Below are positions 2,822 to 23,742 of a DNA stretch of 23,742 bases, piece by piece. The notes below the pieces were generated by a model. That model was not told the DNA's origin. It was given only the letters and a program-made list of their open reading frames with translations, and ran no database searches. The stretch is taken from positions 1-23,742 of IMG/VR virus record IMGVR_UViG_3300047667_001523; one strand, given 5' to 3'. The position numbers were made by a program, and so were the translations under genes. Origin of the DNA: a virus. Position 1 is the first letter of the stretch; every line of letters begins with the position of its first letter.

Positions 2822-3895
2822 TTACTTTGTTCCTACTACTGCCTCAACGACACCTGCTTCGTCGTTAATTTTATTCTCTAGTGCACGGCCTATAACGGTA
2901 TATACGCTTGCACGATCTAATACGCCTGCCATTGCATGTCCTGGTACTGATGAAGCTACAAGCCTATCACCTTTATTTACTTTGCCAATAACTTTAACTG
3001 GAATTCTGCCTGCCAGGGCCACGTATGGGTGAGTCTTCTTTGTTCCTGCACCATCGTTCATACCAAATGCTGGTTTATCGGAAATAACACCAAACACATC
3101 TGTGCAATATTCAGTATCAGTCTGTGTAATTTCCTTAGTACCGCCAATTTTAACAACAGTGCCATAACTATATTCAGCATCTGATGCGTAACGTTCTGCA
3201 AGGTCAGCGTACAATGCTTTGGTTGCCGTTCCGCTGAATACATAATCTCCAGCTGTATTCAAGTTAATACCCTGGCGCACTAATGGAAATTCTGAAGATA
3301 ACACGGTAACTCCATTTTCCAAATACTCAGTATCTGCTCCACCATCGTTTTGTGGTGTCCAACCAGTTGCTCCAATATCATCTGAGCTTTGAATGCTTAC
3401 AATTTTTCCATTTACAATAGTTTCTATTGTACGATATTGGAAACCATTTGTTGCATTTCGGGTACGTGCCACAATGCGACTGTCACCTGCAACATCACTA
3501 AATGATATCCATGAACCGTTATAGTAAATATACAGCAAACCAGTGTCGCTGTCTAGCCAAAAATGACCGTCTGTCTCACCAACACTTGTTGGTGCATTTG
3601 ACTGCACCGCCATATTAGCTATTGACTTCCAATTACCAGAATTTGCTACTGTGTTATCAAAATATCTGAGTGAGTTAGATGCAGAGTCAAACCAAATTTG
3701 GCCCTCCACGGGTTTGCTAGGTGCAGAACCACTTGCAAAGTTTTCCAACAGATGCAGCATGTTTTCTGCTACTACTTCACCATAACCTTTATAGCCTCTT
3801 CCGACTAAGCCGATATTGGTGGTTGTATCAACCGCTGAGTTAGCAACTGTTATTGCTGTTTTGGTTCCGTTTGTGAAATCTACTGTATATGCCAT
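2822..3895 (-). CDS. Tail fibre-like protein with conserved ADLAERY-type end domain (357 aa)
   Basis: A 357-residue fibre-type protein. Residues 25-65 (TNIGLVGRGYKGYGEVVAEN, then LHLLENFASGSAPSKP) match an N-terminal module I recall in many marine T4-like fibres. Two copies of a W-containing beta unit follow: GQIWFDSASNSLRYFD at 65-80 and GHFWLDSDTGLLYIYYNGSW at 110-129. Residues 227-330 hold a C-terminal module recalled from cyanophage fibres: ALYADLAERYASDAEYSYGT, DVFGVISDKPAFGMN, then VALAGRIPVKVIGKVNKGDR and SSVPGHAMAG. It may act like the intramolecular-chaperone or end domains of other fibres, but I cannot assign protease residues. The ATG follows the upstream stop closely: GCAGGA spans the upstream stop region 6 bases before the start. 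The following gene begins on the base after its own TAA. The role in host contact is inferred. Confidence 0.87.
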   Translation of the reverse strand: MAYTVDFTNGTKTAITVANSAVDTTTNIGLVGRGYKGYGEVVAENMLHLLENFASGSAPSKPVEGQIWFDSASNSLRYFDNTVANSGNWKSIANMAVQSNAPTSVGETDGHFWLDSDTGLLYIYYNGSWISFSDVAGDSRIVARTRNATNGFQYRTIETIVNGKIVSIQSSDDIGATGWTPQNDGGADTEYLENGVTVLSSEFPLVRQGINLNTAGDYVFSGTATKALYADLAERYASDAEYSYGTVVKIGGTKEITQTDTEYCTDVFGVISDKPAFGMNDGAGTKKTHPYVALAGRIPVKVIGKVNKGDRLVASSVPGHAMAGVLDRASVYTVIGRALENKINDEAGVVEAVVGTK

Positions 3896-3898
3896 GTG

Positions 3899-4474
3899 TT
3901 ATCCTGCTGAGATCCTTACGGTGTAAATCACTTCGATTTTTCTGTTCTGTGATTTTTGAACTGGATGAAATATCAAGTGCGTTAGTAATCTACCTTGTTG
4001 CGAAACTAGACCAATCTCATCAAATACAAAGTCACCCTCTTGGCTGGCTGTATTGTCAAGTGGATCTTGCCCTGCGGGCTCACCATAATCTAGTGTGCAT
4101 GTCACGACCACATCACTGTATGTCGTTCCACCTGTGTGAACCACAGATGTATTATTTGCAATATCATCATTAACATTAAAGTTAACAATTTTTGTATAGG
4201 TTTTATTATATAATTCAGCAGTAACATCTGTTACATTTACTGTGTTATATGTAACATTGCCACTGCCATCAATAACTACACCACCATTACCAAAAGACAA
4301 TCCGTTAATAAATCCTGTGAATGAATTAATTCCTGAGGTATTGGTTAATGATGATGCAATTGCAAAGCTCATATTTTCACGATGAATTGCATTACGACGA
4401 TTTAAAATAATCTCGCCTGTAGCAGGGTCACGTATTAAAACGTGGCCTTCAACATGTAATTTTAGATGATCCAC
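3899..4474 (-). CDS. Conserved T4-like virion-associated protein (191 aa, GTG start)
   Basis: A 191-residue protein starting with GTG: residues 6-20 read LHVEGHVLIRDPATG, followed by RRNAIHRENMSFAIA, GFINGLSFGNGGVVIDGSG, TLDYGEPAGQDPLDN, FDEIGL and LLTHLIFHPVQKSQNR. This ordered motif set (VEGHVLIRD, NAIHxENMS, FGNGG, LDYGEP, FDExGL, THxIFHPVQKS) is one I recall as a small conserved structural protein in cyanophage-like T4 viruses and some alphaproteobacterial myophages. I do not know its exact place in the particle. The GTG at 4472-4474 is the first start after an in-frame TAG, with AGG (4484-4486) 9 bases upstream. A late-promoter-like GCTAAATA at 4499-4506 lies 24 bases before the start, making this the first gene of a three-gene unit ending at 752. 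Confidence 0.88.
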   Translation of the reverse strand: MDHLKLHVEGHVLIRDPATGEIILNRRNAIHRENMSFAIASSLTNTSGINSFTGFINGLSFGNGGVVIDGSGNVTYNTVNVTDVTAELYNKTYTKIVNFNVNDDIANNTSVVHTGGTTYSDVVVTCTLDYGEPAGQDPLDNTASQEGDFVFDEIGLVSQQGRLLTHLIFHPVQKSQNRKIEVIYTVRISAG

Positions 4475-4523: not shown

Positions 4524-5990
4524 TTATGTCACTGTTCCAATTTCACCAGTTACATACCATGTATCAGTTGCTGCTTTATATAGTTTTGCTTCGCTCCATT
4601 GGGCCGTAATATTACCACTGCCAGTCAAAACACCATTTAATGTTACACCAGCACCGCCAGCACTTCCAGTAATTGTAGTAGCACCTGCACCAATTTGAAT
4701 AATACGAATTTCAGTACCAATAGGATAATCAATTGCAGTGCTGTCTGGTATTGTAAGTGTGTTAGATGCAGCATTGGCCATTGTTATGATTCTGGATTGA
4801 TCTGCCAATACACTGGTATATGTAGTGCCAGTCTGTGGATTAATTGTCCAAGTATGTTTAATTTCACCAGTAACGTTGAGTATCGCCCCGTTCCATGTAA
4901 GGTTATTGTTGCCTTCAACCAAGGAGTCGCTAGCCCATACAGCTATCTGGTTATCTGCTGGTGTACCACTCTTGGTGATATCTGTACCTGTATAAACATA
5001 ATATGTGTTGGCTGTGCCAGAATATACTGCAACAGCAAATGTATCAAAAGGAGTTGGGCAGATAATAACTGTACTTTCACCACCACCTGCTTCAGTAAGG
5101 CCGTTAATAGTCACACCATTTGCCGCCCCAACAATTTCCATTGTTTGATTGGCTGCTTTGATAAAGGTGACAACCAACTGTGGTGGTGTGCCAAGTGCTG
5201 ACGAAACTGGTAGGGTCCAACGTGTGGTTCCTGTTGCGCCGGCGTTTGTTTGATAAGTCAAGTTATCTGTGGAACCAAGTACCTTTTCATTTCCAGATGT
5301 TGCATATGTTGTTGTGTTGTTTGCAACACGATTATTGTCAACTCGCAACAGCGCTTGATTGGTTGATGGATTAGTTACTGTAATACCATTGCCAGTTTGG
5401 AAGGTTAACGTAGTTGCATTAAATCCAGTTGCGCCAACACCATTTACAGGTGCGTTGCCTATTGAAATATTTTCAATTGGTGCTGTGGGAATACCATCAA
5501 GTTTTATACCATCTGTTGCAATATCTCTGCCGTCTACTGTGCCTGTAACCACCAAATTGCCAGTCAAAGTCAACGTTGTAGTGTTGCCATCCCATGTAAG
5601 TTCACCAAAGCCAACCAATGTTGTAGCATCTGCCCATACTGCAATTTGATTTATTGATGGGCTACCTGTTGCTGATAATGCAGATGCGTCTGCAAATGAT
5701 ATGTTCAACCATACTGCATTACTTGTGCTATTATCAGCACACATATAAGCAACGTCATTCGTCTCATCAATCCAAATGTCACCAAGTTGGAATGTACCAT
5801 TACCACTTGTGTTTGCATCATCGTCAGTAGCTGCTGGTGATGTTATAAACCCAGTTGATACAAAAGCAACTGAGTCTGCGATGTTTGTCCATTGGCCACG
5901 CAAATCGCCAGCGCTAATTTCACCTAATGTGTTGTCTGGGAAAAGGGCGGTAGTTTGCGCTTTAAGTTCTGTGCTGTCTAATTTTGCCAT
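4524..5990 (-). CDS. Modular tail fibre protein with internal repeats (488 aa)
   Basis: A 488-residue Thr/Asn/Gly-rich beta protein. Residues 16-42 (ALFPDNTLGEISAGDLRGQW) form a module common at the N-terminus of phage fibres and shared with the 925-residue fibre nearby. Residues 68-95 carry LGDIWIDETNDVAYMC followed by AVW. A NQIAVWA...L.G...LTW.G...L.VTG unit occurs twice, at 114-150 and 347-375. Residues 385-488 (QTGTTYTSVLADQSRIITMA to the end) form a C-terminal module about half identical by eye to the end of the 344-residue protein at 9658-10692. A more diverged copy seems to sit at 255-323 (TRWTLPVSSALG, VTINGLTEAGGG). The ATG at 5988-5990 has AAGGA (5996-6000) 5 bases upstream, and a late-promoter-like octamer lies at 6009-6016. 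Probably a trimeric fibre; the receptor is unknown. Confidence 0.85.
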   Translation of the reverse strand: MAKLDSTELKAQTTALFPDNTLGEISAGDLRGQWTNIADSVAFVSTGFITSPAATDDDANTSGNGTFQLGDIWIDETNDVAYMCADNSTSNAVWLNISFADASALSATGSPSINQIAVWADATTLVGFGELTWDGNTTTLTLTGNLVVTGTVDGRDIATDGIKLDGIPTAPIENISIGNAPVNGVGATGFNATTLTFQTGNGITVTNPSTNQALLRVDNNRVANNTTTYATSGNEKVLGSTDNLTYQTNAGATGTTRWTLPVSSALGTPPQLVVTFIKAANQTMEIVGAANGVTINGLTEAGGGESTVIICPTPFDTFAVAVYSGTANTYYVYTGTDITKSGTPADNQIAVWASDSLVEGNNNLTWNGAILNVTGEIKHTWTINPQTGTTYTSVLADQSRIITMANAASNTLTIPDSTAIDYPIGTEIRIIQIGAGATTITGSAGGAGVTLNGVLTGSGNITAQWSEAKLYKAATDTWYVTGEIGTVT

Positions 5991-6064: not shown

Positions 6065-6574
6065 TTAAAAGTTTTTGACTTCATCTGGCGTTGCATCAAT
6101 CGATGCTTGTGCCCGGCTACGCTCTGATTCGTCTGTTACAATAGCTGGGTTCGCCACTTGCTCTACTGTTGTGGTACCATCGTCAGAGTATATTGCTATT
6201 TCCACAGTTGCCGGCAACGCTTCAATTGCTGTCTGTCCTAATATAAGTTCAGTTACGGCTACACCTTCATCATCGATCTCACCAGTGTCTTGTTGATAGT
6301 AAACCTCTTCACGGCCAACTGCTAATTCATATTTTTCAAGTCGTAGTGTTGCTCTTCGGTATCGTAATAGATCAAGATTAAAGACGTTATTTGTCTCACT
6401 AATCTGATTGTCGTGTATCCAGTTCATTGCCCATGCTTCATAATATGTGGGATCTGAAACCTGAAGGGCTGTTCGTTGATGTACAGCCATCTCTAGATTG
6501 TATATTGCCAGGCCTCGATTATACGCCTGAGCAACAGACAAATACGCATCGCCTTTTTGCATGAATACTGTCAT
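6065..6574 (-). CDS. Unassigned fibre-cassette protein, possible tail fibre assembly chaperone (169 aa)
   Basis: I do not recognise the family with confidence. The product (MTVFMQKGDAYLSVAQAYNR...) is mixed helical and acidic. It has DPTYYEAWAMNWIHDNQ, a basic helix LLRYRRATLRLEKYELAVGR, then an acidic beta-like tail (QQDTGEIDDEGVAVTELILG) and an end rich in Asp/Glu. Its place as the last gene after a receptor-type fibre, its size and the RYRR helix suggest an assembly chaperone for that fibre, like gp38 or Tfa in other phages. This is inference. I prefer the ATG at 6572-6574, which overlaps the upstream stop as ATGA and has GAGG (6582-6585) 7 bases upstream. A longer form starting at 6589 would add MRGVR but begins inside the upstream gene without a good ribosome site. 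The gene is probably translated by coupling. Confidence 0.78.
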   Translation of the reverse strand: MTVFMQKGDAYLSVAQAYNRGLAIYNLEMAVHQRTALQVSDPTYYEAWAMNWIHDNQISETNNVFNLDLLRYRRATLRLEKYELAVGREEVYYQQDTGEIDDEGVAVTELILGQTAIEALPATVEIAIYSDDGTTTVEQVANPAIVTDESERSRAQASIDATPDEVKNF

Positions 6575-6858
6575 TCTGACACCTCGCAATCTATGTCTAC
6601 AAATACCACTGCCGGAGCCACAGCAAATACTACTGAGTATATGAAACCATCAAACGTTACAGTATAATCATTACCTGATCCTTCACGCTTCCTTGCTCCA
6701 TCAGAGTAGACAAACTTAGGTTCCCATCCGTTGGGTAGAGCGAAGGTTGTTTCTGAGCTGTCGCCTGTAAAAGCAAAGGTTTCGATGCGATATTCTGCGG
6801 CACCCTTGTTTAGTTCTTTCCGCAAATTGATTGCTGGTTTGCTTATTGATACGGTCAT
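6571..6858 (-). CDS. Small beta-rich tail-associated protein (95 aa)
   Basis: A 95-residue protein: MTVSISKPAINLRKELNKGA, then FAFTGDSSETTFALPNGWEP, FVYSDGARKREGSGNDYTVT, and an end rich in Val/Phe/Ala (YSVVFAVAPAVVFVDIDCEV). The TGDxSxTTFxLPNG...VxxDGxxxxxGxDYTVT pattern is a beta-sandwich module widespread in phage tail and fibre proteins, here free-standing. The hydrophobic end probably forms the last strands of the domain and is not clearly a membrane segment. The ATG overlaps the stop of the LamG fibre gene (ATGA), with GGAG (6867-6870) 8 bases upstream. Its own stop overlaps the next start in the same way. It may cap or decorate the fibre, but that is inference from position. Confidence 0.8.
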   Translation of the reverse strand: MTVSISKPAINLRKELNKGAAEYRIETFAFTGDSSETTFALPNGWEPKFVYSDGARKREGSGNDYTVTFDGFIYSVVFAVAPAVVFVDIDCEVSE

Positions 6859-9632
6859 TGCTTAATCTCCATTTCGTCAACCACTGATATAAAGGTGGTG
6901 ACTGCTGTTGCGTCCCTTGAGACTGGTGTGATGCCTGAGATAGTAGCCATGCCGCTTGCACCACCAACATAAAGCAAATCGGTCACTGGATCGTGGGACA
7001 AAGCGGTGACAGCATCGGCAGACAGGACTGACAAAGCATTGTCTTGGAACAAGTGCTTTTCATCGTTGTAGATTTTGGCGATCTGTGCGGCAGTTAGTGC
7101 GGTTGCTGATATGCGAAGAAGGGCAAGTGAACCGACCTCGAAAGCCTGCGAGTTGCCTGCGGCTAAATTGCCAATAACAAAAGTCGGAGTGGTTCCTGAT
7201 ACATCTCCGGCATTTGTTGATGATGTGATTAGCAGACCATCTATATACAGGCTAACCGTCGTGCCACTACGGATCAGTGCGAAGTTTCCCCATTGCCCTG
7301 TAATATTGCGAACCACCGTTGTCAGTACGTTGTTAATGTATATGTACCAAGTCCCAGTAGAAGCGATGTAGCCAAGAGCTAACTCTGTGGTGTCACGTCC
7401 AAATATATAGTCTTGCCCTGCCCCTTGTGTGGCGTCAGGTTTAACCCAGCCCATAATCGAGAAGTCACCAGTCCCGAAATCGAGATCAGCGTTGTAAGGC
7501 TGCTCAAGATAGTTCGCTGCCGAGAACCCTGAATAGCCCACAAGCTCCGCACCAGTAGCGACAGCCGCTCGTGCGATTGTGCCGTTGACGATCAAGCCTT
7601 TGGCGTTCACGGATCGATCAGCGTCTACCTCATACACCTTCACATCTCGTATTCTAAAATTATTGCCAATTGATGTGTTAGCGCTTTCAATCAGAAATCT
7701 CATGCGCCCATCACCAGTTGGACTGCCATAAGATGTGTAAGTACCAGCCCCATTTGGATAGATGGTCGGTCCACCCGAAAACATCGACGCGGCCATCGTG
7801 TTACTTGCAGAAACAATAGTGTATTCAAGTCCGTAACGTTTAGACCCATCAGTTACCATCAAGTTTGTTGCCCACTCAACCCCCGGTCGGGTTTGCCCAC
7901 CTGCGGTATCCGTAAAGGTATAACTGCCGTCACCGTTATCTACCCAAGTGCCAGTTCCCACTGTCACAAATTCTGATAGACTTGGACTTATGTTACCAGA
8001 GCCAACCAGCGACACCGTAGACACCGAGGACAGGAACGCACCCTTGATGTCGCCAACCATCCAGCCTGTATTAAAGGTGGAATTTAGGAAAACCGCCATA
8101 CCTTTTGAAAAGTCGCTATAGTTAACACTGTTTATAGAAACTCCGAATTTTTTTAAACCCGAAAATGCCGTTCCTATAGACGCCAAAAGAGCTGTACCAT
8201 ATGGCAAAACTGAGTTTGTGGTTGCAGAAACGGCGGGGATTTTCATTGTGTTTGTTAGATCACTCCCTCCAAAACCAGCGGCAAAAGTAGTTGAATAAAG
8301 AGTAGTCCGTCCATAGTTGTTTCGGGTCATCCAAAGGCCCCCACGATCATCAAATTCAACTGTGTTTATCCCAACCGTAGTCCCGCTATTTGTTACAGTC
8401 CCATCATTATTGATAACACTCACACCGCCATCAGTACCCACTGCAATCGTAGGGATTTGCAAGCCGGTTGCAGGATCGATTGGCGCGTTGGGATAACAAT
8501 GCATTGTTACGTCGTTGACTGCACTGTTCACCAGCGGGGAGAGTAATCCCGTAACAACATCTGCTGTTCCGACGTTTCGATTTGCAATTATACAGCCATT
8601 AAACTCACTTGTTGTTGAGCTTCTTAGATAGCTATAATCGCGAACAAAATTAATTTGAGCCAAGCCTCCAAAAGCAAGTTGACCGATCACAAGCACACCT
8701 TGCTTGGCTGAAACACAGGATATGGTTTTGTTGTAAACTGGACGGCCAAGGCCACCGTTAAACACCATCCACATTGGTAAAGCCGGATCAGTTCCATCGT
8801 AGATCGTGACCTTATTGGCCTCTGCCAAAATAACGGCAGGGTCAGGAAACGCACGAGTTGCGCCCCGTGTTGCAGTGTTCAGTGGCTCGTTAAACCAAGA
8901 ACTGGCACGAGCTTTTGCACCGTCGATCCAATCGCCACCATCCTTATCAAGTGAAGCGCTGTAAACCATCCCGGCAACCGCTGTGATGCCTTTGGATTGC
9001 GCAATGGCAAGTAGTTCTGTTAGTCCTGCTAATTTAGTTTCCTCTGCGGTGGTATAGCTTGCTGTTGTGTTCTGAAGCACAGATGAATATGCTTGTGCAG
9101 TAACACCAATTGCTGCGGGCTGTAATGCGGTATCTGCAAGAGCGCCTTGCGCGCTTGATGCAACACCAGTTAAAGCTGCCCCGTCTCCTGTAAAATCTGT
9201 CGCTGCCACAGTGCCTGTAACACTTAACACGCCACCAGTATATGTCAGTGCTGATGTTCCCACTACTATTTTGTCATCTTGCCAAACTGCAATTTGACTT
9301 ATGGCACCATTACCATCACTAATTACAGGGAAGTTTGTAGCTGTTATTTGCCAAATTGCAGCGCCAACAGTATTAGCTGTACAGATATAGGTGCTACCAG
9401 TTGCGCTGTCTACCCAAAAATCACCAACCCCAAATGATCCATTACCAGCAGTACCATTTATATCGTCAGTAACAATGGGCGGAATTGCTGACGACGTATG
9501 TCTAAACGGCACACTATCTGCTAAATTAACAAATTCATTGCGCATATCTGCTGGTGAAATTTCACCAGAAGTATTATCAGGTAGGTTGGTTGCAATACTG
9601 CTTAATATGGTTTCTCTACTTGTTTCAGTCAT
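6855..9632 (-). CDS. Receptor-binding tail fibre with LamG-like lectin domain (925 aa)
   Basis: The protein has a phage N-terminus and a likely adhesive tip. Residues 10-45 (TNLPDNTSGEISPADMRNEF) match the module of the 488-residue fibre, followed by VGDFWVDSATGSTYIC and a QIAVW...L.VTG unit up to about 160. From about 210 the product changes: DKDGGDWIDGAKARASSWFN, VTIYDGTDPALPMWMVFNGG, and a propeller-like strand IPTIAVGTDGGVSVINNDG near 390-410. Residues 546-671 resemble a carbohydrate-binding beta sandwich (DNGDGSYTFTDTAGG, then FRIRDVKVYEVD). Residues 708-860 are LamG/concanavalin A-like (DFGTGDFSIMGWVKPD, VSLYIDGLLI, LTAAQIAKIYNDEK). A last propeller-like strand pair follows (ALSHDPVTDLLYVGG). 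The coding DNA from 6855 to about 9000 is GC-rich compared with its N-terminal part. The ATG has AAGGA 6 bases upstream and a late-promoter octamer at 9652-9659. Host-surface glycan binding is inferred. Confidence 0.86.
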   Translation of the reverse strand: MTETSRETILSSIATNLPDNTSGEISPADMRNEFVNLADSVPFRHTSSAIPPIVTDDINGTAGNGSFGVGDFWVDSATGSTYICTANTVGAAIWQITATNFPVISDGNGAISQIAVWQDDKIVVGTSALTYTGGVLSVTGTVAATDFTGDGAALTGVASSAQGALADTALQPAAIGVTAQAYSSVLQNTTASYTTAEETKLAGLTELLAIAQSKGITAVAGMVYSASLDKDGGDWIDGAKARASSWFNEPLNTATRGATRAFPDPAVILAEANKVTIYDGTDPALPMWMVFNGGLGRPVYNKTISCVSAKQGVLVIGQLAFGGLAQINFVRDYSYLRSSTTSEFNGCIIANRNVGTADVVTGLLSPLVNSAVNDVTMHCYPNAPIDPATGLQIPTIAVGTDGGVSVINNDGTVTNSGTTVGINTVEFDDRGGLWMTRNNYGRTTLYSTTFAAGFGGSDLTNTMKIPAVSATTNSVLPYGTALLASIGTAFSGLKKFGVSINSVNYSDFSKGMAVFLNSTFNTGWMVGDIKGAFLSSVSTVSLVGSGNISPSLSEFVTVGTGTWVDNGDGSYTFTDTAGGQTRPGVEWATNLMVTDGSKRYGLEYTIVSASNTMAASMFSGGPTIYPNGAGTYTSYGSPTGDGRMRFLIESANTSIGNNFRIRDVKVYEVDADRSVNAKGLIVNGTIARAAVATGAELVGYSGFSAANYLEQPYNADLDFGTGDFSIMGWVKPDATQGAGQDYIFGRDTTELALGYIASTGTWYIYINNVLTTVVRNITGQWGNFALIRSGTTVSLYIDGLLITSSTNAGDVSGTTPTFVIGNLAAGNSQAFEVGSLALLRISATALTAAQIAKIYNDEKHLFQDNALSVLSADAVTALSHDPVTDLLYVGGASGMATISGITPVSRDATAVTTFISVVDEMEIKQ

Positions 9633-9651
9633 TGACTTTCCTTATTCATGG

Positions 9652-9659
9652 TATTTATT
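9652..9659 (-). promoter_or_regulatory. T4-type late promoter octamer (AATAAATA) overlapping a stop codon
   Basis: The minus strand reads AATAAATA, a full match to NATAAATA, 19 bases before the ATG of the LamG fibre. It shares two bases with the TAA stop (9658-9660) of the upstream fibre gene, so the promoter is packed into a 25-base gap. It would drive the three-gene cassette 9632 to 6065. Confidence 0.58.
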
Positions 9660-10692
9660 ACGCGATTGTACCAATAACGCCGTCCACGATCCAAGTATCA
9701 CTTGCAACATGTCTGATTTTTACAACATCGTATTGGGCAGTGATCACACCGCCACCAGCAGCCACACCATTCAGGTTTACTGCGGCACCTGCTTGTATCG
9801 TTGTTGCGCCAGCGCCAAGTTGAATAATTTCACAAGTAAATCCAACAGGATATGCTGTCGTTGCAACAGGATCAATTGTAAATACGTTTGATGCTGCGTT
9901 GGACATTGTTATCATTGCGTTGGCATCTGTTAGAACAGTTGTGTATGTTGTTCCGGTTTGTGCGTTTACTTGGTGTGCAGTGGTGACGTATCCGTTTGAT
10001 GTGGTAATATTTCCAGTAACTCCTACACCACTGTTGAAGTAGTTATACTGAATATGTGTGAAAATACTGGTTGCGTGGTCGTAATTGGATATACTCTTTA
10101 CATATGCACCTGCTGCATCAACCTCGTTTATGGCATATGAACTTCCTGTGGTGTCAGCACCAATAACTTGACTTGCGAAAGTTACACCAAAGTTACCTGA
10201 CGTAGCGCCGTTGGATAACCATAGGATACCGCCACTATATTGTGTTGTTGCTGATCCACTGACATTCAAGGTACCTGTGCCTGCGGTAACTACAAGGTCG
10301 CCCTCTACGGTGGTATCGCTCAGAGTTTTATTAAATAAAGTTTCTGTACCTGTAAGTGTGGCAACACCAGCAAGGGTAACAGTAGCTACCCCACTGATGT
10401 CAGTAATAGTAATATTGTTGCCCACAAAATTCCACGTAGCTGCATTGTCAAGAACAGTTACACCTTCTTCTTGGATCGCAGGTCGAATACCAGTTGTGAT
10501 GCCATTTTCAATATCAGCAATAACTTTCTGAACATTTTTAACACTGCTACCGTTACGTGTTGTTACCAAGCCTGGGCCAACTCCGCTGCCAGTGGCAGTT
10601 GCAGCATCATTAGATATTGCGCCAAGAACTGTTACATCTTGATCAGCCAAATTAAGCAATGCAACCAGATCGTTAATTGTGTTTACTACCAT
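9658..10692 (-). CDS. Tail fibre-like protein with shared C-terminal module (344 aa)
   Basis: A 344-residue beta-rich protein. The start (MVVNTINDLVALLNLADQDV) is helical and unlike the N-terminal module of the other fibres. Residues 105-150 have repeating strands with ITDISGVATVTLAGVATLTG and LFNKTLSDTTVEGDLVVTAG, the latter a common fibre-shaft unit (NKTL.DTT..G.L.V). Residues from about 245 to the end (QTGTTYTTVLTDANAMITMS, IIQLGAGATTI, NLNGVAAGGGVITAQYD, DTWIVDGVIGTIA) form the module shared with the 488-residue fibre. It lacks the PDNTxGEIS start, so it may attach through another protein or be a fibre half. The ATG at 10690-10692 has AGGA 7 bases upstream, and a late-promoter octamer at 10716-10723. 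It follows the giant gene after 46 bases. Confidence 0.84.
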   Translation of the reverse strand: MVVNTINDLVALLNLADQDVTVLGAISNDAATATGSGVGPGLVTTRNGSSVKNVQKVIADIENGITTGIRPAIQEEGVTVLDNAATWNFVGNNITITDISGVATVTLAGVATLTGTETLFNKTLSDTTVEGDLVVTAGTGTLNVSGSATTQYSGGILWLSNGATSGNFGVTFASQVIGADTTGSSYAINEVDAAGAYVKSISNYDHATSIFTHIQYNYFNSGVGVTGNITTSNGYVTTAHQVNAQTGTTYTTVLTDANAMITMSNAASNVFTIDPVATTAYPVGFTCEIIQLGAGATTIQAGAAVNLNGVAAGGGVITAQYDVVKIRHVASDTWIVDGVIGTIA

Positions 10693-10715
10693 TTCATCAT
10701 CCTATAAGTTTATAT

Positions 10716-10723
10716 TATTTATT
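10716..10723 (-). promoter_or_regulatory. T4-type late promoter octamer (AATAAATA)
   Basis: The minus strand reads AATAAATA in the 46-base gap between the stop of the giant gene and the ATG at 10692, 23 bases from the start. It is a full match to the NATAAATA consensus, in AT-rich surroundings, with the AGGA site between it and the start. Confidence 0.58.
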
Positions 10724-10738
10724 GATATTCAAAGTGCA

Positions 10739-13700
10739 TTATACCAACGACACTTCCATTATCTCAATTAATTCTTCCAATTCTGACTGTAATGATGCAA
10801 TTGCAATATTTGATTCTTGTTTTGTTAACCATTGCGCATGTTGTATATTACCATATGGGTCAATTGTACCAAAACCATCAGCACGTATACTAATTGCATT
10901 TGGATTATCATTAGTGGCTGACAACAAACTATCGCCAAGTTCATTCCAAGCTGGTGACAAGTTATTTGTTTGCCCAGTTGTTGTCGCTCCGTAAGTACTC
11001 AATGCTGTATTTTCAGTCAATGCATGATTAGTTTCATCTTCAATAATATCAGCAAAGCTGTGGCCTCTGGCAATTGTGCCTTGTGTACCACGTGTTATAC
11101 CTGTCAAAAGTTCAACACCAGCAAAGCCATCACTAAATCCTGCACTAAACCCACTGATAGCAGTTGCTACACCAAGCGCATTTTGTGCAGTAAGCACAGT
11201 CTTACCAGTATATGTTATACGTTCGCCATTTATCCAAATTGCACCACTTGCTTCTGATAATACACCAGTTCCTGTGTTCAGGAATGGTATAACGGTATCG
11301 CTTGGGCCAATATTAATTCCCAGTAGTACTTTGCCTGCATCGACAATCTGACTTGAATAATTGTTGCCATTTGTACCAACATGCATACGGAACGAACGAG
11401 TGGTTGTTTCGTTAATTGTGCTGTCCACTGGATTAGTCTGCACACGGATTTCAACAGTATCAAGAGTGGTAATATCCACGCTGTCATCAGCTATTTTACG
11501 CACAATTGCATCACGTATCTTACTATGGAAAGGTTTAACTGTATTGACATAGTCAAAGAAGTCATCAACGTTTTCTGTAAAGTAACGATTAAACTGCTTT
11601 TCTAATACGTCCTCTGCAATCAAATTGAAATAACTGCTTTTAAACAACCAATCAACTTCATTTTGTTCACGCAGGACATGCTTGGCCATATACAACCATA
11701 AGTCGGCATATAAGCTACTACGCTCTTCAATCCAAATACTGGTGTAGAAACTGTCAAAGATCTCAGCTAACACGCTGCTAGCTTCTTTGTCCCAACTGTT
11801 GGTATCAAATCCAACTATATCCCAACCAGTATCTCCCTGGCTGCTATCCCAAAGCAAGTCATTAAATTTAATAGTTGCTCTTTCTTTGTATATAAGATTC
11901 CATTGCGCGCCTTCATATTTCCATACGCTACGACGGATACGGTTATCAATATCAGTGCTGCTCTCTACTTGTGCAATGTCACCTTCTACTGCGGCTATGC
12001 CAGATAATTCACTAGTTGTTTGGATGAAATAATCACCAACACCACGTTCAAATGTGAATCCATTAATAGACCAATCTGCAAAATTCCAATAGTCGGTAAT
12101 ATCATACTCAAGTGCACCAACAGAGAATTTACGCTCAAATATCGCCTGCCAAGGAATATCACTATTGATAATATTGATGTTGCTAAATTGATCATTAATC
12201 TTATCAAGTAAAACTTCACGTGCATTATCAATTGATTTAAACCAAGTCTGGTGCGGACGAGTTTCCAGACCATATCGAACTGCTGGGTGCAGGGTGCGGT
12301 CTGGAATGCTTTGTGCTGCATTCAGACGTACAATATCAATACCATTATAATCACCGTCTGGATTATCTTTGTTGGCTTCCAATAGTGTCCAAAAATTGTT
12401 ATTGGCATCGCTATCAGGATTATTATTAGTTGTGGTTGTATGGCAACGGAAAAACTGCTCTAATGTGCTCTTTACTATATTTCCTGGTGAATAGGTTGTA
12501 CTATTGCTCCAAGCCACGTATTCAGAATCAACTGTGTTCTGTGCAAAGCCTGCAAGGCTATCGCGTAGGCTGATGTGCAGCCATTCAGGAATGTGCAACT
12601 TTGGATCATTTTCTGCCAACAATACAAATTCCTGATGGTAATCACTTGTATTGACATCAAAGTTTACTTGCATTACAAGATCTGTATATCCTGTTGCATT
12701 AGGCAGGCTACTGACTAATAATGTATTATCACCTGTTGCAGCTAACCAATCCACTTGTTGAGTGGTTGGATCTGCTATAACCGCTGCTAGCTGCACAACA
12801 CTATAGTTACGTTCCAAGGTGGGCGTTGTTGTTTTGTTGCTAACCCAGAAGTAATAGTATGTTTCAATCTGATTGGTATTTCGATTTACCTCTAGTTCTT
12901 CACTCCAACTGTATTGTGCTTCACCAAACTGGTCTTCCAAAACATATGGTGTCCCCGTCAATTCAATACCATCAATGATTGTGCCAGCGTTTACGGCTGC
13001 AAGATATTCATCAGGTGTTACTGGACTTTTAGTCCATTCATAAATGTCAATGCTACCTGTTGGGAATAGTTGCCCCCATTGCTCTTGACGGTATTCTGGT
13101 GTGCCCTGGTCATAGTTTAGATATATAGCATTCTGCAAGTCCCACCATACAGTACCAATCTGCTTTTGGCCCCATGCATTTTCAATACGTACTTCCAACT
13201 CAGGGTCAGTTGAACTGTTATAGTATGCAAAATCAACATCACTACGTAGATTGATTTCGATATCTGCAATACCAGGGATGATACCTTTCAATGGGTCAAA
13301 TACTTCAAAACGTGTTATTGTTTCTCCATCTGTATTGTTATACAGGATACCATTCTTAATTTTGCTGTTGTCTGTTTTACCATTTTCATTACGAACCAAT
13401 GTTAAGCCAGCGCCAGTATCAGTTCTTCCAATAGTATACACTGCTCCATATCCCAAACTGTTATCATTGCTATCCAATAGTGCATCAACGTATATATAAT
13501 CATTAGTACGCAGACCCAATGACGCTTGTACATAAGATGTATTGCTTAGTGCATTGGTCGCGTCCGCTGAGTTAGAGAAGCGAACTGAACGAATTGGTAT
13601 TACTTTGCCAGTAAATCCCTTCTGCTCAATATACCTATCTATGTAAAATCCAAACTCGCCCTGCAATGACGTAACCTGGTGGATTCCATCCACGCTGGGA

Positions 13701-16700
13701 ATACATGTTGAATTAATAATGAATACATACTCGCCAACCGCAAGGGTATGCTCTTTATTGACGAACACCAACGCATCATCACCATTTTCGTTACCAGCGC
13801 AAATTTCAGTTACACCAATTTGAAAATCTAATGTTTGATAAACGTCATAACGATTGGTTGTGCTACTAGGACCTATGGAATTAGCCCCAATATTGTCAAT
13901 TGTCCAAATATTAAAGTGTGCAGGTTCCTGTGCTACATTCCAATCAGCTTCATTAAATATGTTCTGTACTGCATCAGTTAAGCTGCTATACACATTTTCA
14001 TCAATACCCAATTCAATATTAGCTGTACCTGCACCAATTGTAAGTACACTACCAACGAATGTAATCAATAATGCGCCTTCAACCTGACTGGCTGTAATGC
14101 CAGTGATTGCTGCATTGTTAATTTGTGTTACTACATCACCAATGGCCAAATTAGTAAGCACCACTGATGTGTTGGTGGTTGCATTAATTGTTCCAAAATT
14201 AACACCAATGTTGGTGTTGGCTGTACCGCTACCTATTATCAAATTTTGATTAGTGCTGGAAATTTGCATTTTATTGTTAATTGCTTGCGCACTAACACCA
14301 GTTATACTTGCATTGTTTACCGCTGTCACAGCTTCTGACAACGTTAAATCAACAGGTCCTGTTACCGTTGTACTCTGTGTGGCAACATCATTGTCAGCAA
14401 CCGTATATCCTAAAGCAGTATCAATTGATACACCCAAGCGGGATCCAACCAAATTACTTGTGCGTCGCAACGTAATAACATTGCCAGTTAAGGAAACGGT
14501 GATGCCAGCTGGTGCGTTAGCCAATGCTAATGCGGTAGTAATTTTGTTGCCAATTGTAGCAAGAGTATCTGTTATGTATTCTGTTGGGTTGGTTACTGTT
14601 ACTTCAGTACCATCTGCAATAGATGTTCCCCCATTGGCTGCAACAAAAGCTCTAAAGTCTTGTAAATTTTCATTTACATCAGATGCTGTATTGTTGAAAT
14701 CCAACAAGTTATTAACTGATAATACATCAGCATCAAACGTCGCACTATTATTATAGCTGCCGCGACCAGAAACTAATGTGTTTTCTGTTTCTGTATGCGT
14801 TCCTGCTAATGATGTGAGCAAATCCAAGTCTAATTGGATTAGAGTGCGGGCTGCACTTTCCCATGTAGCACCTATGTTGGCGGCTACTTGATCACCAACA
14901 TATTCAGGATTAACATAACGGTCAGGGTTAACTGCGGCATTATAATAGTTGCCAATCCAAGTTTCCCATGCTGCTATGCTGGTCGCTGTTGTGTACGCTT
15001 GGCGCAGTGTTTCAAGTGCTGTCAAACGGCTTGCTGTTTTGCCCAGCGGATCTGATTCAGATGTGGCACTTAATACAGCAACCCAGATTGCTTGCATGGT
15101 TAAAGTAGTGTTTAACTCGTTAAATGCCACTGTTACTGGTGTAAGCGTGTTGGTAGCATTACTTGCATAACTGATCGTTAATTCACGTGATGCACTGTTT
15201 TGTATAGTTGGGTTGGTTACATTACCATCAATTACAATATCACCAAACGAAGTTGTAGTTTGAGTTTTAATAAAGTTGACATTGATACTATCCAATGTTA
15301 GAGTGCTACCGCTTGATATTACAGGATTAGTTACAGTACCATTAACTACAATGGTATCATATGTAATATTAGTACTAGATTTTGCGAACGTAACAGTATT
15401 GCCATTGGCAACAAATGTCAAGCCATTATTAACCAACGGGAATACTTGTGTGCCACGAACCACAATGTCATCTTGTATGGCAGTGAGACCAGTTGTTGCA
15501 ATTGCTAAGGTGTGTACTTTACCAAATCTACGTACCATGTCGCCTTGAATGTATGCAGTTGTCTCGCTCCAATTTGGGATAAGTGCATATTTTTGTGTTG
15601 GGTCATAAATGTCACCAATATCGTCAATTGATCCTAGGAAATAATCAATTTCATTAACAATAGGAAGACCAGCATCACGAGTAAACGTTTGATACTTATT
15701 AAGGGTCTGTATACTTGTGTTGTCCAATCGCAGCACGTCAAAGACGTCAAACGGTGTACTAAAATTACCGCTGATCGCATCAGATGCACCTTTGTGTAAA
15801 TCTACAATTAAATCTTCTTGACGATCACTTACAAAGGTGTCATTAAATCTAAAGTGCTGTGGATCAGTTTTTATTTTATTAGGATCAACAGCAAACTGCA
15901 ACGGGTTACGCTCAGACACATCACCATAATCACCCAAACGTACCATCCATTCTTCGTAAAGTTCATGGTTAAAGGATGTACCAAAGATGTTTTTGTTTCT
16001 GGCCATTGCAGAAATCGCTGCTGATGTTCCCTTATACTTGCGCTGCCCTTTTTCAAAGTTGTATGCGCTTTTATCAGAAATAAACATATTGGTCATATAT
16101 GTTGGCTTTGAGTATCCAACATTGTAGCCAATTGTTTGACGCGTTAGTCGCTCAAGTGCTTTACTTTCTGCTGATACCCAATCTTGTTCTAGTTCACGGA
16201 CGCTACTTTCAATATTGAGCACAAGTCCACGATCTTGTACAATATATCCTGGTGCCTCAACACGGCCATTCCAGTTGCGGGTACGTTCACCTATTAAGTG
16301 CACACGCTTCTGGCCCACACCAATTTCTGGCTGGTAAATTGGATCATTGAACGTTGTATTATTTTGCAGAGTGATGATATGTTCAAATTCAATTACGCGA
16401 ACACCAATTCCATAAATGCGATCAGACTGGTCCGCCATACCTATTTCAGTCTTTGTGTTATCTCGTAGTACCAGCATTTCTGAACGTCTAATTTTCTTAA
16501 ACTTATTATCCAAAATGTTGACTGCGCCATCATAATTGACATCAATTGTTTGAAGCAGACCACGCTCCCCCTGGTAATAATCTAATGCAGTGACAATACC
16601 ATTCACAAAAAACGGTTCTGTTTGTGTAGCATCAAGTGCCCATGCAATAGCTTCAAGAGCATCTACTTCCCATTCAGCAACTACATCAAATCCAATACTG

Positions 16701-19700
16701 TCATAATACTTGCCAAGACCTAATAGAAACTGATACAACTCTTGACGTTTAATAAATCTGCTACGGTATGGAATACGTTTTATTTCATTGCGCCATTTAA
16801 GATGCTTGACAACCTCAGTATTACCAACGTTTACGCTAACAGCTTTGCCAGCTGTACTTGGTGATAGGAATTGGAAATAAGCACTGTCTAAGTCATAACC
16901 TGTTACCTGATAGCTGGAGTCAGCTAGTTTTTCAATTTTGACACCAGAATAAAAGGCGGTCTTGATAGGTGCATTACGGTCAATTAAGATATCATAACTA
17001 TTGTCTGGAATTTTAATGTTTCCGCTTGAAAAGTCGCCATCGATTTCTATTGTCATAATACGCTTGTCAGTGTAGCCACCAACGTGTAGCATATAGTTCA
17101 ATTCCAAATTTTCCAGGCGGTCTGCCAAGTTATTAGTATGGGTTTCAATCTCACGGTATTCCTCAGCTGGTAAACTATTAAATCCAAGATGTGTTACTAC
17201 AAAGTCAAAATCCAAGCTAAATTCTAGTTCTGCGCCTACCGCACCTGTGCTCCCTGTAAGGACAACTGTTGGTGCGTTATTAAAGCCTCTACCTGGCTGT
17301 TGTATAGAAACACCAACAACTCCGCCGCTGTTTGTATAAGCAACAGCCTCTGGGTTGTGGTAGCATACATTATCTGCTATAAATGCAAGGTCCAAGGTTG
17401 TATAACCAGTGCCAGGAGCAGTCACTTTAATTTTACTGATGACACCATCAGTAATTAATTGGTTGTGCAATTCTGATATATGCTGACGTTGGCATGTGTC
17501 TGGATCAATCCATTGTTCCTGTGTTACTGTACGATTGCGCTCCCATCTGGCAAGTTGCCAGAATGTTTCATGTGTACGGTATGGTTTTAGTTGCAAATAT
17601 ACTTCAGCAAGAGCAAACAGATACTCGCTACTTTTACGCCACTTGTTTTCGATTTCACTCCAGTCACCAAATACAAAGCTCTGGCTGGCAGGCTGTGCTG
17701 ATGGTGATGGTACCACTTGTCCGCTAACAGGATTATTTAAAACTGCTAATCCGTTATCACTGACAATCGAATTTGCAGACCAATTATAGCTGTTTCTTGC
17801 ATAACGTACATCAACAAAGTCTGCGCTGGTTGCGTTGCCTGTTATACCATATGTAAGCGCATTTTCCAACGCGGTGCGCAATGCTCCTGCAGTCCAAGAA
17901 TACGTTGCATCCCACCAAACTGGCTTTACTGAGTGACCAAGCATCTCCCAAGGATGAGTATGTGGGCGATCTGTACCAAAATAATAAACATAAACTGAAC
18001 GCCAGCTACCTAAATTAGGGCCAACTGATGAATAGTTCCAAGTAAATTCGTTACCATTATCGTACGCAACATCATCAATTACACTGACATTATTGCGCAC
18101 TGCCCAACGATTGTACCAATCATCAAGCCGTATATTTAGATCTGCAACATTGTACGCAAGTTTGCGGTGCGGCCCAGGATAAAACTCATTCATGTCAGCA
18201 ACAATATCATCACCAACAAAGTGCGCATCAACAAGGTTGTTATATATACGAAGTTCAAAATCCCACAATACAGCGGTTTCAATATCAAAGCTTGTGGAGT
18301 TCATATCAACTACACTTGTACCAGTTATTGCATGCCGTGAACCATCGTGCCCTATTAGTTCGTCGCCTACAATTTCCACCTGAGTGGGCTTAAAGAATCC
18401 TAGCTTAACTGCGCTAAATGGCACATGGCTAACCTGTTTGTGATCATACCAACGAATTGTAACCACTGCACCGTTTGTTACGGCAGTAGTTAATGTGATA
18501 TTTGGACCCTCTATAATGTATTCAGTACCTCTGACCAGCGGACGTTCCAGAATTACACCAGCAGCGGAAACAAATTCTTTAACATAAACTTGCACGTGAT
18601 TTTGTGTATCACCATAGCGGTTAACAACTTCTGGCAAGGCCAATGTGGTTAACGTTGTGGTAATATTATATGTAAGTGAACGCGCTTGTTTGTAATAAAG
18701 CATATCGCTATGCGCGTACTTAAATGTATCATTCTTGCCCAAGTTAATATCACTTAATGCGCGATCAGTCAACTCACGTATATTGCTCCAGCTTTCTGTT
18801 GTCCATAGCTGTTTAGCCTTGCTTCGCAGTGATTTCTTAAAGTTTGCATAATCAATCGAAAAGCTCTTCAGGGCACGGATAGGATTAATATCCTCCTGGT
18901 CCATTAAATGCTGTACATTTTTTGTGCGGAATCGCTGTTGACGGATTAGGCCATCAAATGTATTTAGGCGCAATGTGTTGTAATAATTATTGACTCCAAC
19001 TGTGCTACCAGTAAATCCTGGCAATGCCGCCATCTGTCGTGTAAGGTGATTAATTATGTCATCATATCCAGCACCAGTAAACGCCTTGTTATCATTGTTA
19101 TAGAAATGCACAGGTGCAACATCGTATACTGCATTTACAAGATCAGTGTTGGCAATATATTGCAATTCAACAACATCGTATACCACGCAGCCTGTAACTG
19201 TAATACTTGATCCAGCGCGTGTGAAGTCTTGGTTTTCAATTAACCGCTGTCCATTTTTTACAATTGAATAGCGTTCATGGTTATTATTATTGATAAAGAT
19301 CTCACCAAATTGTGTTTGTATTTGTCTATTTTCATATATAACACGGTCATATTTGTATTGACTGCTGATGTTAAGTGTGTATGTTGTATTGTTAATTTGT
19401 GTTAATGTAATATCCCCGTCAAAGATTTCAATTGCACCGCCAGAGATCCAAGCAGTATAATCACCACTGTCAGTTCCCTGCAATTCAATTGTAGTACCAT
19501 TGATTACTGTAATTACTTTGGTAATATCATTTAATTCTACACTACCAACAGTATTGGTTATTTTTACACTATCGCCAGTTTTCAAGGCAGCGGTTGCTGC
19601 AACTGTTAATTGTACAGGGTCATTGGAAACTAATGTGACTCCTGTTATATTCATTGGCGCCACACGCATTGGCGACACAAACTGGATAGGTGTTGTACTA

Positions 19701-21743: not shown

Positions 21744-23742
21744 TTACCTTAATGCGTTCAATGAATCGACAATGTCGATATCTCTTAATGTTACGTCTGG
21801 AATGAATAGTTCATTGCTTTCTGGGATGATTTGGAATAAGTCTCCAAATACACTGTTACTTTGCGTCGGCGTGATAACAATGCTAGCTATTACACCTGGC
21901 AGTTGCTGGTGTATGTATGCACTTAGTTCAGTAAAGTAGAAAGTTTCACCGAAATCCCAATTATCAATATTAAAAAATTCGTTAATTGCGGTCAATACTT
22001 TAGATTTAATTTCGTTACTTGTCAATGTTGTACCTGATACTTTCACAATCTTAAATATACCTTGCAGTTCAACGTCAGCCAGCTCACCAAACAAAATTTT
22101 ATATTCTGCTGCACGATAAACAATACTATCGCTGATTGCTTTTTTACTTTCAATACCTGTAAACTGTTTTTCAAGTGCTATATCGGTTGGTGCGTCTGGT
22201 TTAGTTGCTGGTAGACGGCTATCTGCAATCCACTCTCGGTATTTATTATCGTAATTTTGGTTAAGAACGAAGATGTCAATAATGTTACTCAAACTAGGGT
22301 CAATACGGTAATTACTTGTACTGATACGGCGCCAGGTAAATGTTAGTTTTTCTCTGCCAGAAGTAGATACACCAGTGTCACTGCGAACTGTATAAGTATG
22401 CCCGTCCTCAGTGATAGTATTTAATGCAATCGTGTCTGTTCCAGCAAGCATTTTAAATGCAAGTGGGTTGTCAGGATAATTGTCATTGTCAATATCAGCC
22501 AACGTTACAATTACCTTACGATCATCAGTATAACCATCTGATTCTGTAAAATAACGATGGGTAAAGAAAGGCAGTGATTCTGCTAATGGAGAAAGTCCTC
22601 CGCCGGGCTGAGTATTTGTGCTGCTAATTAAAATACGATCACGTTCTGGTTTATTTGTTTCAACATTGAATCGACGCTTACCATTTTGGTTATAAAATCG
22701 AATGTTGGTGTCACTACCAAATACTATACGAGAACGTCGTGATATAAATTGCCATGCATTTGCACTATAATTTACACGTATAATCCAGCTATGGTCCAAG
22801 TTGCTATTTGAAGCATTACCAGCATTGGCAAAGCTAAAGTTATCTGGATCGTTTTCGCTAATTGGTGGCAAATCGCCAGCACGGATAATTTTCCATAGTC
22901 CTGTATCACTTTCAAAACGCAAACCGAAAGTATTAAGCGCTGCAATTTCATCAATTATGGCATTCTTTTCATCTGTGCTAAACACAGTATTGTAGGAAGG
23001 AAAAATACGGCTAACACGGGCAGTATTGGGGATGCTTTTATTAAGAATTATAGCACCTTGCCCTCTGCTGGTAATACCAGTTGGGTTACCATTATTATCA
23101 GTTATGCCCTGGCCTTCGCTTACTATATCAATAACCCTTGCCCAGCCACGAGTTGCAGTTGTTGCTGCCGCAACAACCATTGCACCAGTCCCGCTTCCGC
23201 CAATAATCTCAATTACAACAGGATTCTGATAACCAGAACCACCATTTGTAATTGTAACCACTGCCAATTGTCCGCCTGATATTGTTGCTGTGGCCGTTGC
23301 GCCTGTACCTGTTCCACGTATTGCAACTGATGGTTGACTAGTAAATCCTGAACCTGCATTAACAATAGTAAGTGTGGTACCAATAACACCAAGTGTTCCT
23401 GAATTATACGGTGACTCAATAAACTCTACAATGGAGCCAGGACCTGCATTACTTAAATCATTGACTGATGTGGTACCTGCCTTTTGTATTGCACTATTTT
23501 GTGTAAGGTAACCTGTTGATCCTTTATATCCAGATGTAATTTGCTGCCATTCATAGCTGGCGGCGACAGTGCTAAAGTCAACATCTTTAACAGTGTATTT
23601 GTCATAAAACAAATTGATAATTTCTGGGTTTTCAATTAGATCAGCAATGTATCTCTCATAAATCTGTTCGCTTGATAATGTTGCTGGCAAGGCTATGCTA
23701 TTGCGATACGTAACACCCTCGCTATAGATGTAACCATCGTCA
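21744..23742 (-). CDS. Virion structural protein with GxGY beta repeats, 5' end outside window
   Basis: The frame is open to the right edge. Upstream of a TTG at 23690 it continues as DDGYIYSEGVTYRNSIA without a stop, so the true start is outside and 665 residues are visible. Near 23185-23370 two GxGY units occur (VNAGSGFTSQPSVAIRGTGT and ITNGGSGYQNPVVIEIIGGS), a repeat common in marine phage structural proteins and also found in the giant protein. Around 22450-22560 lies FTESDGYTDDRKVIVTLADI followed by DNDNYPDNPLAF. The latter is an acidic loop that may bind calcium, in a segment I recall from cyanophage-like virion proteins. The C-terminal 170 residues are more helical (ITAINEFFNIDNWDFGE-like) and end ITLRDIDIVDSLNALR-like. 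The stop is 4 bases before the ATG of the giant gene, and the end of this gene contains the giant gene's ribosome site, so the two are co-expressed and probably act in the same tail or baseplate structure. Confidence 0.85.
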   Translation of the reverse strand, partial: DDGYIYSEGVTYRNSIALPATLSSEQIYERYIADLIENPEIINLFYDKYTVKDVDFSTVAASYEWQQITSGYKGSTGYLTQNSAIQKAGTTSVNDLSNAGPGSIVEFIESPYNSGTLGVIGTTLTIVNAGSGFTSQPSVAIRGTGTGATATATISGGQLAVVTITNGGSGYQNPVVIEIIGGSGTGAMVVAAATTATRGWARVIDIVSEGQGITDNNGNPTGITSRGQGAIILNKSIPNTARVSRIFPSYNTVFSTDEKNAIIDEIAALNTFGLRFESDTGLWKIIRAGDLPPISENDPDNFSFANAGNASNSNLDHSWIIRVNYSANAWQFISRRSRIVFGSDTNIRFYNQNGKRRFNVETNKPERDRILISSTNTQPGGGLSPLAESLPFFTHRYFTESDGYTDDRKVIVTLADIDNDNYPDNPLAFKMLAGTDTIALNTITEDGHTYTVRSDTGVSTSGREKLTFTWRRISTSNYRIDPSLSNIIDIFVLNQNYDNKYREWIADSRLPATKPDAPTDIALEKQFTGIESKKAISDSIVYRAAEYKILFGELADVELQGIFKIVKVSGTTLTSNEIKSKVLTAINEFFNIDNWDFGETFYFTELSAYIHQQLPGVIASIVITPTQSNSVFGDLFQIIPESNELFIPDVTLRDIDIVDSLNALR
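23185..23370 (-). repeat. GxGY/GxGF tandem beta repeat
   Basis: Two consecutive units of about 28-32 residues in the right-edge structural protein follow the plan V-x-N-x-GSG-F/Y-x-x-(Q)-P-x-V-x-I-x-G-x-G-x-GA. A related pair lies in the giant protein at about 17215-17440 (APGTGYTTL and QPGRGFNNAPTVVLTG). Probably a stacked beta element of the virion surface. Confidence 0.65.

Follow-up and report, generated by a model that had tools for sequence, protein, structure and literature searches.

In the T-even phages T2, S16 and PP01, the gp38 adhesins are built of constant glycine-rich motifs that alternate with hypervariable segments (PMC12892980, PMC6851490), and the Alteromonas phages A5, V22 and P24 have a fibre gene and a chaperone gene in common though the phages are otherwise unrelated (PMC10579305). 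Here, we analyzed a tail fibre gene encoding 925 amino acids (aa) at 6855-9632 on the minus strand of the IMG/VR virus record IMGVR_UViG_3300047667_001523, a 23.7-kb fragment (23,742 nt) whose full length is called the window in the following. Very probably, this fibre is a chimera in which a native anchor and hinge of about 204 aa are followed by a mobile receptor-binding cassette consisting of the tip and the two genes gp95 and gp174, with variable slots between conserved blocks of the tip being exchanged by recombination.

The likeness to gp38 lies in conserved segments that alternate with hypervariable ones in the host-range tips of related phages, and the window tip has this layout. However, gp38 is a separate protein with short hypervariable segments that caps the fibre trimer, whereas the window tip forms the C-terminal part of the fibre within one open reading frame (ORF), and gp38 forms a polyglycine-II sandwich from its glycine-rich motifs (PMC6851490), whereas the blocks of the window tip are not glycine-rich. 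By analogy the tip would work like gp38, but as these two defining features are lacking it is not one. Furthermore, the window tip consists of blocks of 27-85 residues and slots of 76-123 residues, two of the LamG or putative carbohydrate-binding module (CBM) kind, which unlike those of gp38 are exchanged between unrelated phages and prophages. The Alteromonas phages share about ten syntenic genes, whereas the unit in the window comprises three genes, starts inside the fibre gene at the hinge and exchanges single slots. Among the Laminin_G_3/concanavalin-like lectins (PF13385), the domain around the fourth slot is a member by profile score, but it is one part of the tip only. The baseplate wedge is similar to that of jumbo myoviruses of the Atu_ph07 type, but the lineage of the window is known here from metagenomes and its fibre island differs. 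As far as the literature was searched, the tip family, the graft point within a gene and the way in which unrelated phages and prophages exchange domain-sized slots independently are new.

A native anchor and a foreign tip within one fibre gene

The original prediction had proposed a GC-rich tip on an AT-rich fibre gene, based on the GC content of single 60-base blocks. All eight quoted values were reproduced, the chosen blocks being extremes; over 300-base stretches the GC content is about 42-53% in the tip region and about 40% elsewhere. At synonymous third codon positions, the GC content (GC3s) is 0.217 for aa 1-180 of the fibre and rises to 0.417 for aa 206-925. The large genes nearby have values of 0.24-0.30, and the baseplate wedge gene, the giant gene and the gene of the 344-aa fibre together reach at most 0.317 in any run of 720 codons. 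An unsupervised changepoint search, which was made blind to domain positions, located a change of the GC content at third codon positions (GC3) from 0.22 to 0.42 at aa 209 of the fibre, with a log-likelihood gain of 13.8 that was reached in none of 2000 permutations (maximum 11.0). The strongest segment of the whole window begins at aa 209 of the fibre and reaches aa 51 in the gene that follows, with a gain of 30.6, whereas 60 permutations gave 11.0 at most, and the shift is present at synonymous as well as at four-fold sites.

The homology of the protein changes at the same place. An 810-aa fibre of sister type (L106) aligns with aa 1-204, and the alignment covers a hinge with the pattern AQGA.ADTALQ...TTAEETKL.G; native homology stops at aa 204, and homology to the foreign family starts at aa 206. 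As both homology ends and the GC3 changepoint agree to about six codons, the junction can be placed within aa 204-209 (9006-9023; as all parts of the fibre named here, on the minus strand). In detail, the native N-terminal anchor (aa 1-165, 9138-9632) is shared with another fibre of the window (4524-5990) and with three fibres of the sister phage L078/L104, the native hinge (aa 166-204, 9021-9137) is 67% identical in amino acids to that of L106, and the foreign tip comprises aa 206-925 (6858-9017). A foreign module on a native fibre part, as originally suggested, is thus borne out by coinciding breakpoints in composition and homology. The break is real, but contrary to what had been assumed, the homology to the other fibre already stops at about aa 160, roughly 40 residues before the break, and the hinge lies in between. 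The hinge (9021-9185) is a widespread fibre linker, with 166 stretches in IMG/VR and more than one copy in L108, L112, L113 and L119. It was also considered as the recombination site of the graft, but its synonymous identity to L106 is close to saturation (0.35), so that it gives no sign of a recent exchange.

The comparison with sister phages, which the original prediction had recommended, revealed that they lack the tip block. In L078/L104 and L106 the anchor is about 49-72% identical and is followed by C-termini other than the window tip; three fibres of L078/L104 are built in this manner on the same anchor. At full length, the fibre is matched only in a near-identical strain of this phage, and a smooth composition profile or close phages with the same full-length fibre, either of which would have contradicted a graft, were not found. 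In contrast, aa 206-925 match 40 further IMG/VR loci with a GC content of 0.34-0.62 in a first scan, where the tip stands on entirely different N-termini, and a profile-based scan of IMG/VR yielded 363 stretches encoding tip relatives. The closest relative, L004, is 49% identical to the window in the tip, 79% in gp95 and 61% in gp174; from a quick tree of the tips with many open forks, only the pairing of these two was used.

The proposed extent of the graft (6855-9050) was too short, as the foreign unit continues past 6855 through two genes to 6065. The second gene of the cassette, gp95 (6571-6858, minus strand), lies directly downstream of the tip in L004 and in the prophage loci L088, L089, L092, L093 and L096, and relatives of gp95 and of the third gene, gp174 (6065-6574, minus strand), stand downstream of the tip in many IMG/VR loci. 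A scan of bacterial genomes detected the tip in 15 loci, nearly all of them alphaproteobacterial (Shimia, Pararhodobacter, Pseudooceanicola, Sagittula, Thalassovita, Sphingomonas and others) and one in an Opitutae bin, in agreement with the tie to alphaproteobacterial phages and prophages in the original prediction. In most complete cases the tip is followed by gp95 and gp174 relatives. The Shimia locus (L088) is a prophage tail region with tape measure protein, tail proteins and baseplate hub. At 7216-12214 of this locus and at 9770-14880 of L090 there are two adjacent long fibre genes with similar starts, and at least one of each pair belongs to the tip family. Searches by tblastn of 50,697 cultured-phage records with aa 212-415 of the tip (the first two blocks) gave no match, nor did gp174 match cultured phages, and the full fibre showed only LamG similarity there, in cyanophages. 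The distribution of the cassette suggests an alphaproteobacterial host for the window phage.

For gp174 we propose a role as fibre-assembly chaperone, because it has the linkage feature of tail-fibre chaperones: it is located downstream of the fibre tip and accompanies it in unrelated genomes. The protein most likely comprises 169 aa and starts at the ATG at 6574 rather than at the TTG at 6589 (ORF 6065-6589), since a stop codon breaks the longer frame in L004. Despite an AlphaFold2 model with a predicted local distance difference test score (pLDDT) of 93, no confident fold match was obtained; gp174 had no match in Pfam or among PDB sequences, and its relatives gave scattered single-member matches only in Pfam. 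The layout of helix, two hairpins and helix is similar to prefoldin, but with a Z-score of 3.7 and a root-mean-square deviation (rmsd) of 6.5 for the best prefoldin entry we do not claim this relationship.

In 37 relatives, the GC3 of the tip follows the GC content of the surrounding genome (r 0.97, residual s.d. 0.049), and the tip is itself AT-rich in AT-rich phages (GC3 0.18-0.28 in L016, L020, L023 and L037). Therefore, the composition is not intrinsic to the tip family, and the window tip is not yet adjusted to its present genome. It is the largest outlier of this regression (z +3.2), and the tip of L004 lies 2.6 s.d. below the line. Both tips have a GC3 of about 0.44, which matches a genome of about 49% GC on the regression line and suggests a donor of this composition.

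Conserved blocks and variable slots of the tip

A family alignment divides the tip into five conserved blocks (B1-B5) separated by four variable slots (V1-V4). B1 (aa 212-293, 8754-8999) is followed by V1 (aa 294-369, 8526-8753), B2 (aa 370-415, 8388-8525) by V2 (aa 416-514, 8091-8387), B3 (aa 515-541, 8010-8090) by V3 (aa 542-664, 7641-8009), which is a CBM4-like region in the family profile, and B4 (aa 665-728, 7449-7640) by V4 (aa 729-836, 7125-7448), the core of the LamG/concanavalin-like domain; B5 (aa 837-921, 6870-7124) completes the series. At the DNA level, window and L004 share short blocks of 85-95% identity, which are split by stretches without detectable similarity. In detail, the identity is 85% at 8395-8531 (B2), 95.5% at 7995-8082 (B3) and 87% at 7459-7619 (B4), and for B5 it amounts to 77% over 6357-7118. 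At positions with identical amino acids the two sequences also use identical codons in 147 of 209 cases within the blocks (0.70; 0.34 expected at saturation), whereas within the slots this applies to 33 of 86 (0.38; 0.33 expected; blocks versus slots p 4.7e-7). This contrast indicates that the blocks are young and the slots old or unrelated.

Among 85 non-redundant tips, the median pairwise amino acid identity is 63-74% in the five blocks and 21-27% in the four slots. There are 21 pairs in which at least one slot is 60-100% identical while another is below 35%, and all four slots are common to only 2 pairs. V4, for example, is 100% identical between L239 and L265, with 24-31% in V1-V3; L091 and L233 share V2 at 94% and the rest at 22-24%; and L246, L278 and L281 have V1 in common at 92-95%. 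Furthermore, the prophage loci L089, from Pararhodobacter, and L095, a relative of it, are collinear across the tip at about 88% DNA identity apart from V1. The alignments end at or close to block edges. Judged from these natural sequences, slots are exchanged independently of each other, probably by homologous recombination. The GC-rich part, which the original prediction had treated as one block, hence turned out to be a mosaic in which conserved blocks alternate with exchangeable slots, and its LamG-like lectin domain was recovered by profile.

This domain (PF13385, aa 716-852) scores 64.6 bits against a curated cut-off of 27.6, and the fold of the V4 region matches pentraxins, the CBM40 of sialidases and domain 4 of an arabinanase with Z-scores of about 16 over about 160 residues. 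The family profile of V3 matches the CBM4 chains 1gui, 1gu3 and 1ulo; 4 of 26 relatives match CBM_4_9 (PF02018) in Pfam, and the window itself does not. Outside the LamG part, the window tip protein matches no Pfam or PHROG family, and PHROGs returned nothing for the fibre. In the structural model of the tip the first approximately 230 residues are beta-strand blades with pLDDT values of mostly 65-89, and it is plausible from this model that the five blocks form a beta-propeller-like scaffold. Position and domains suggest that the tip binds the receptor and that the slots bind surface glycans.

A SNP-rich tract between strains, and alternative explanations

A second IMG/VR record (L003, 26,026 bases) is 99.84% identical to the window over 14,135 bases. 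The two are separated by 22 single-nucleotide polymorphisms (SNPs), 13 of which are found in an 81-bp tract inside B5 (6945-7025), where they alter only two residues; in 20,000 random placements, any 81-bp stretch received 5 SNPs at most. From its sequence, the tract looks as though a segment had been replaced through homologous recombination within a conserved block, with mixing in metagenome assembly as an alternative. A second SNP cluster was observed relative to the near-identical strain L059, with 7 of 16 SNPs within 143 bases (18676-18818) of the giant 3666-aa gene. It could be argued that the chimera as a whole is an artifact, in which the assembler joined the anchor and the tip of two phages, since the record is a metagenome contig and the widespread hinge could mislead an assembler. 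We regard this as scarcely credible, because L003 has the same junction and gene order and yet differs by SNPs, and because neither the three-gene cassette nor the native flanks are disrupted. A purely vertical history is very improbable as well. An old tip with fast evolution, whose composition results from amino acid needs or expression and whose slots are loops under diversifying selection, would account for the slots as the most diverged parts, and lectin-like domains do differ in amino acid use; but the composition also shifts at synonymous and four-fold sites, the relatives of the tip in the AT-rich phages mentioned above are AT-rich themselves, and sisters with a 72% identical anchor bear other tips. 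In addition, tips without any relationship in their other slots share slots at 87-100%, a pattern beyond the reach of point mutation.

More weight, although it is still unlikely, can be given to an old acquisition of the tip as a single block, with the blocks kept by purifying selection alone and no exchange of slots in the window phage. In the 84 other tips, the slots reach at most 34% identity to those of the window, so that the actual donor lies outside the sampled tips and the event cannot be dated; and apart from L004 most relatives differ from the window blocks nearly to synonymous saturation. On the other hand, the synonymous divergence from L004 in the common blocks is far below saturation, although the GC contents of the two records are 0.41 and 0.55, the composition is not adjusted, and the B5 tract separates near-identical strains. 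We also think it improbable, although less so than an inherited or an artificial tip, that the tip is an enzyme, namely a glycan depolymerase in which a propeller is joined by additional LamG and CBM domains, an architecture found in sialidases and arabinanases. The Foldseek results are indeed headed by sialidases and by AbnA, a GH43 arabinanase, but superpositions over the whole length are poor (TM-score about 0.2, rmsd above 20 Å), for which reason the sialidase matches of the whole tip were discarded; the good match is that of the LamG-like domain alone, and no catalytic family was among the Pfam matches.

A chimeric fibre with exchangeable slots thus remains our interpretation, and apart from the missing slot partners three further points weigh against it. 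In its middle part the tip is modelled with low confidence (mean pLDDT 59), which weakens the case for a propeller scaffold. With 0.29, the GC3 of gp174 is native-like, and the three genes of the cassette need not share one arrival event. Moreover, the window is a 23.7-kb fragment, and the metagenome assembly from which the sequences of both strains stem could have mixed conserved blocks. The original prediction had called the replacement recent. The position of the tip as strongest composition outlier and the strain-level tract speak for this, whereas the saturated slots of the closest relative and the native-like gp174 do not, and the support is indirect.

The phage, its fibre island and the spread of the tip family

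The phage can be assigned by its baseplate wedge gene (21744-23690, minus strand; phrog_10646, E 5.9e-107), whose product is 33% identical to that of Agrobacterium phage Atu_ph07 across 66% of the length, and a sister fragment of 159 kb carries a wedge 75% identical to that of the window. Judged by this homologous wedge, the marine window phage, recorded here as a 23.7-kb fragment, is a relative of the jumbo T4-like myoviruses. In its sisters the gene order around the fibres is kept at about 36-80% identity. This applies to the giant gene and the beginning of the 344-aa fibre to one side and to the genes at 3899-4474, 2822-3895, 752-2821 and 338-685 to the other, while the fibres between these edges vary in number and content. 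The left edge of this variable island is the native 344-aa fibre (9658-10692, minus strand), whose N-terminus is 64-70% identical in several sisters, and the right edge is the gene at 3899-4474 (minus strand; 53-80% identity in sisters). In between lies the native 488-aa fibre (4524-5990, minus strand), which has the anchor in common with the chimeric fibre (42%, aa 15-160) and a different C-terminus. A domain of about 105 residues at the C-terminus is common to both native fibres (51% identity; phrog_8780, phrog_21978); it is not present in the chimeric fibre and may be the native fibre end. At 5694-19551 of L078 at least three fibres have the same anchor and neighbouring genes show a GC3 of 0.46-0.55; further foreign modules in this island are likely. 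In addition, an E1_FCCH-like domain was observed in the 689-aa protein at 752-2821 (aa 425-485), and a relative of it inside the giant protein (10739-21739, about aa 690-770) was detected through sister proteins in L087, L080 and L081.

In our reading, the first approximately 204 residues are the phage's own anchor and hinge, which recur in several fibres of the group and would ensure that the fibre still fits the virion. The cassette circulates among unrelated tailed phages and prophages, many of them in Rhodobacterales and other alphaproteobacteria, and would supply a new tip together with its helper genes. The five-block scaffold would hold four exchangeable slots, with the CBM4-like V3 and the LamG-like V4 being of the carbohydrate-binding kind. 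When phages meet in one cell, homologous recombination at the conserved blocks could swap slots, so that the binding specificity would change piecemeal and the virion would not have to be rebuilt. We lean toward the broader view that the tip is a combinatorial receptor-binding platform across unrelated phages, with a scaffold whose slots are filled from a large communal pool of domains, exchanged slot by slot and accompanied by helper genes.

Switching of the host range by tip exchange has been known in a few model phages, and many uncultured phages as well as prophages of Rhodobacterales appear to follow this logic with a different protein. As the exact slot boundaries are given and natural pairs differ in one slot, the part of the tip that sets the specificity would be testable with natural variants, which usually requires engineering. 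Furthermore, the tip family may serve as a sequence handle for reading host sharing among phages in metagenomes.

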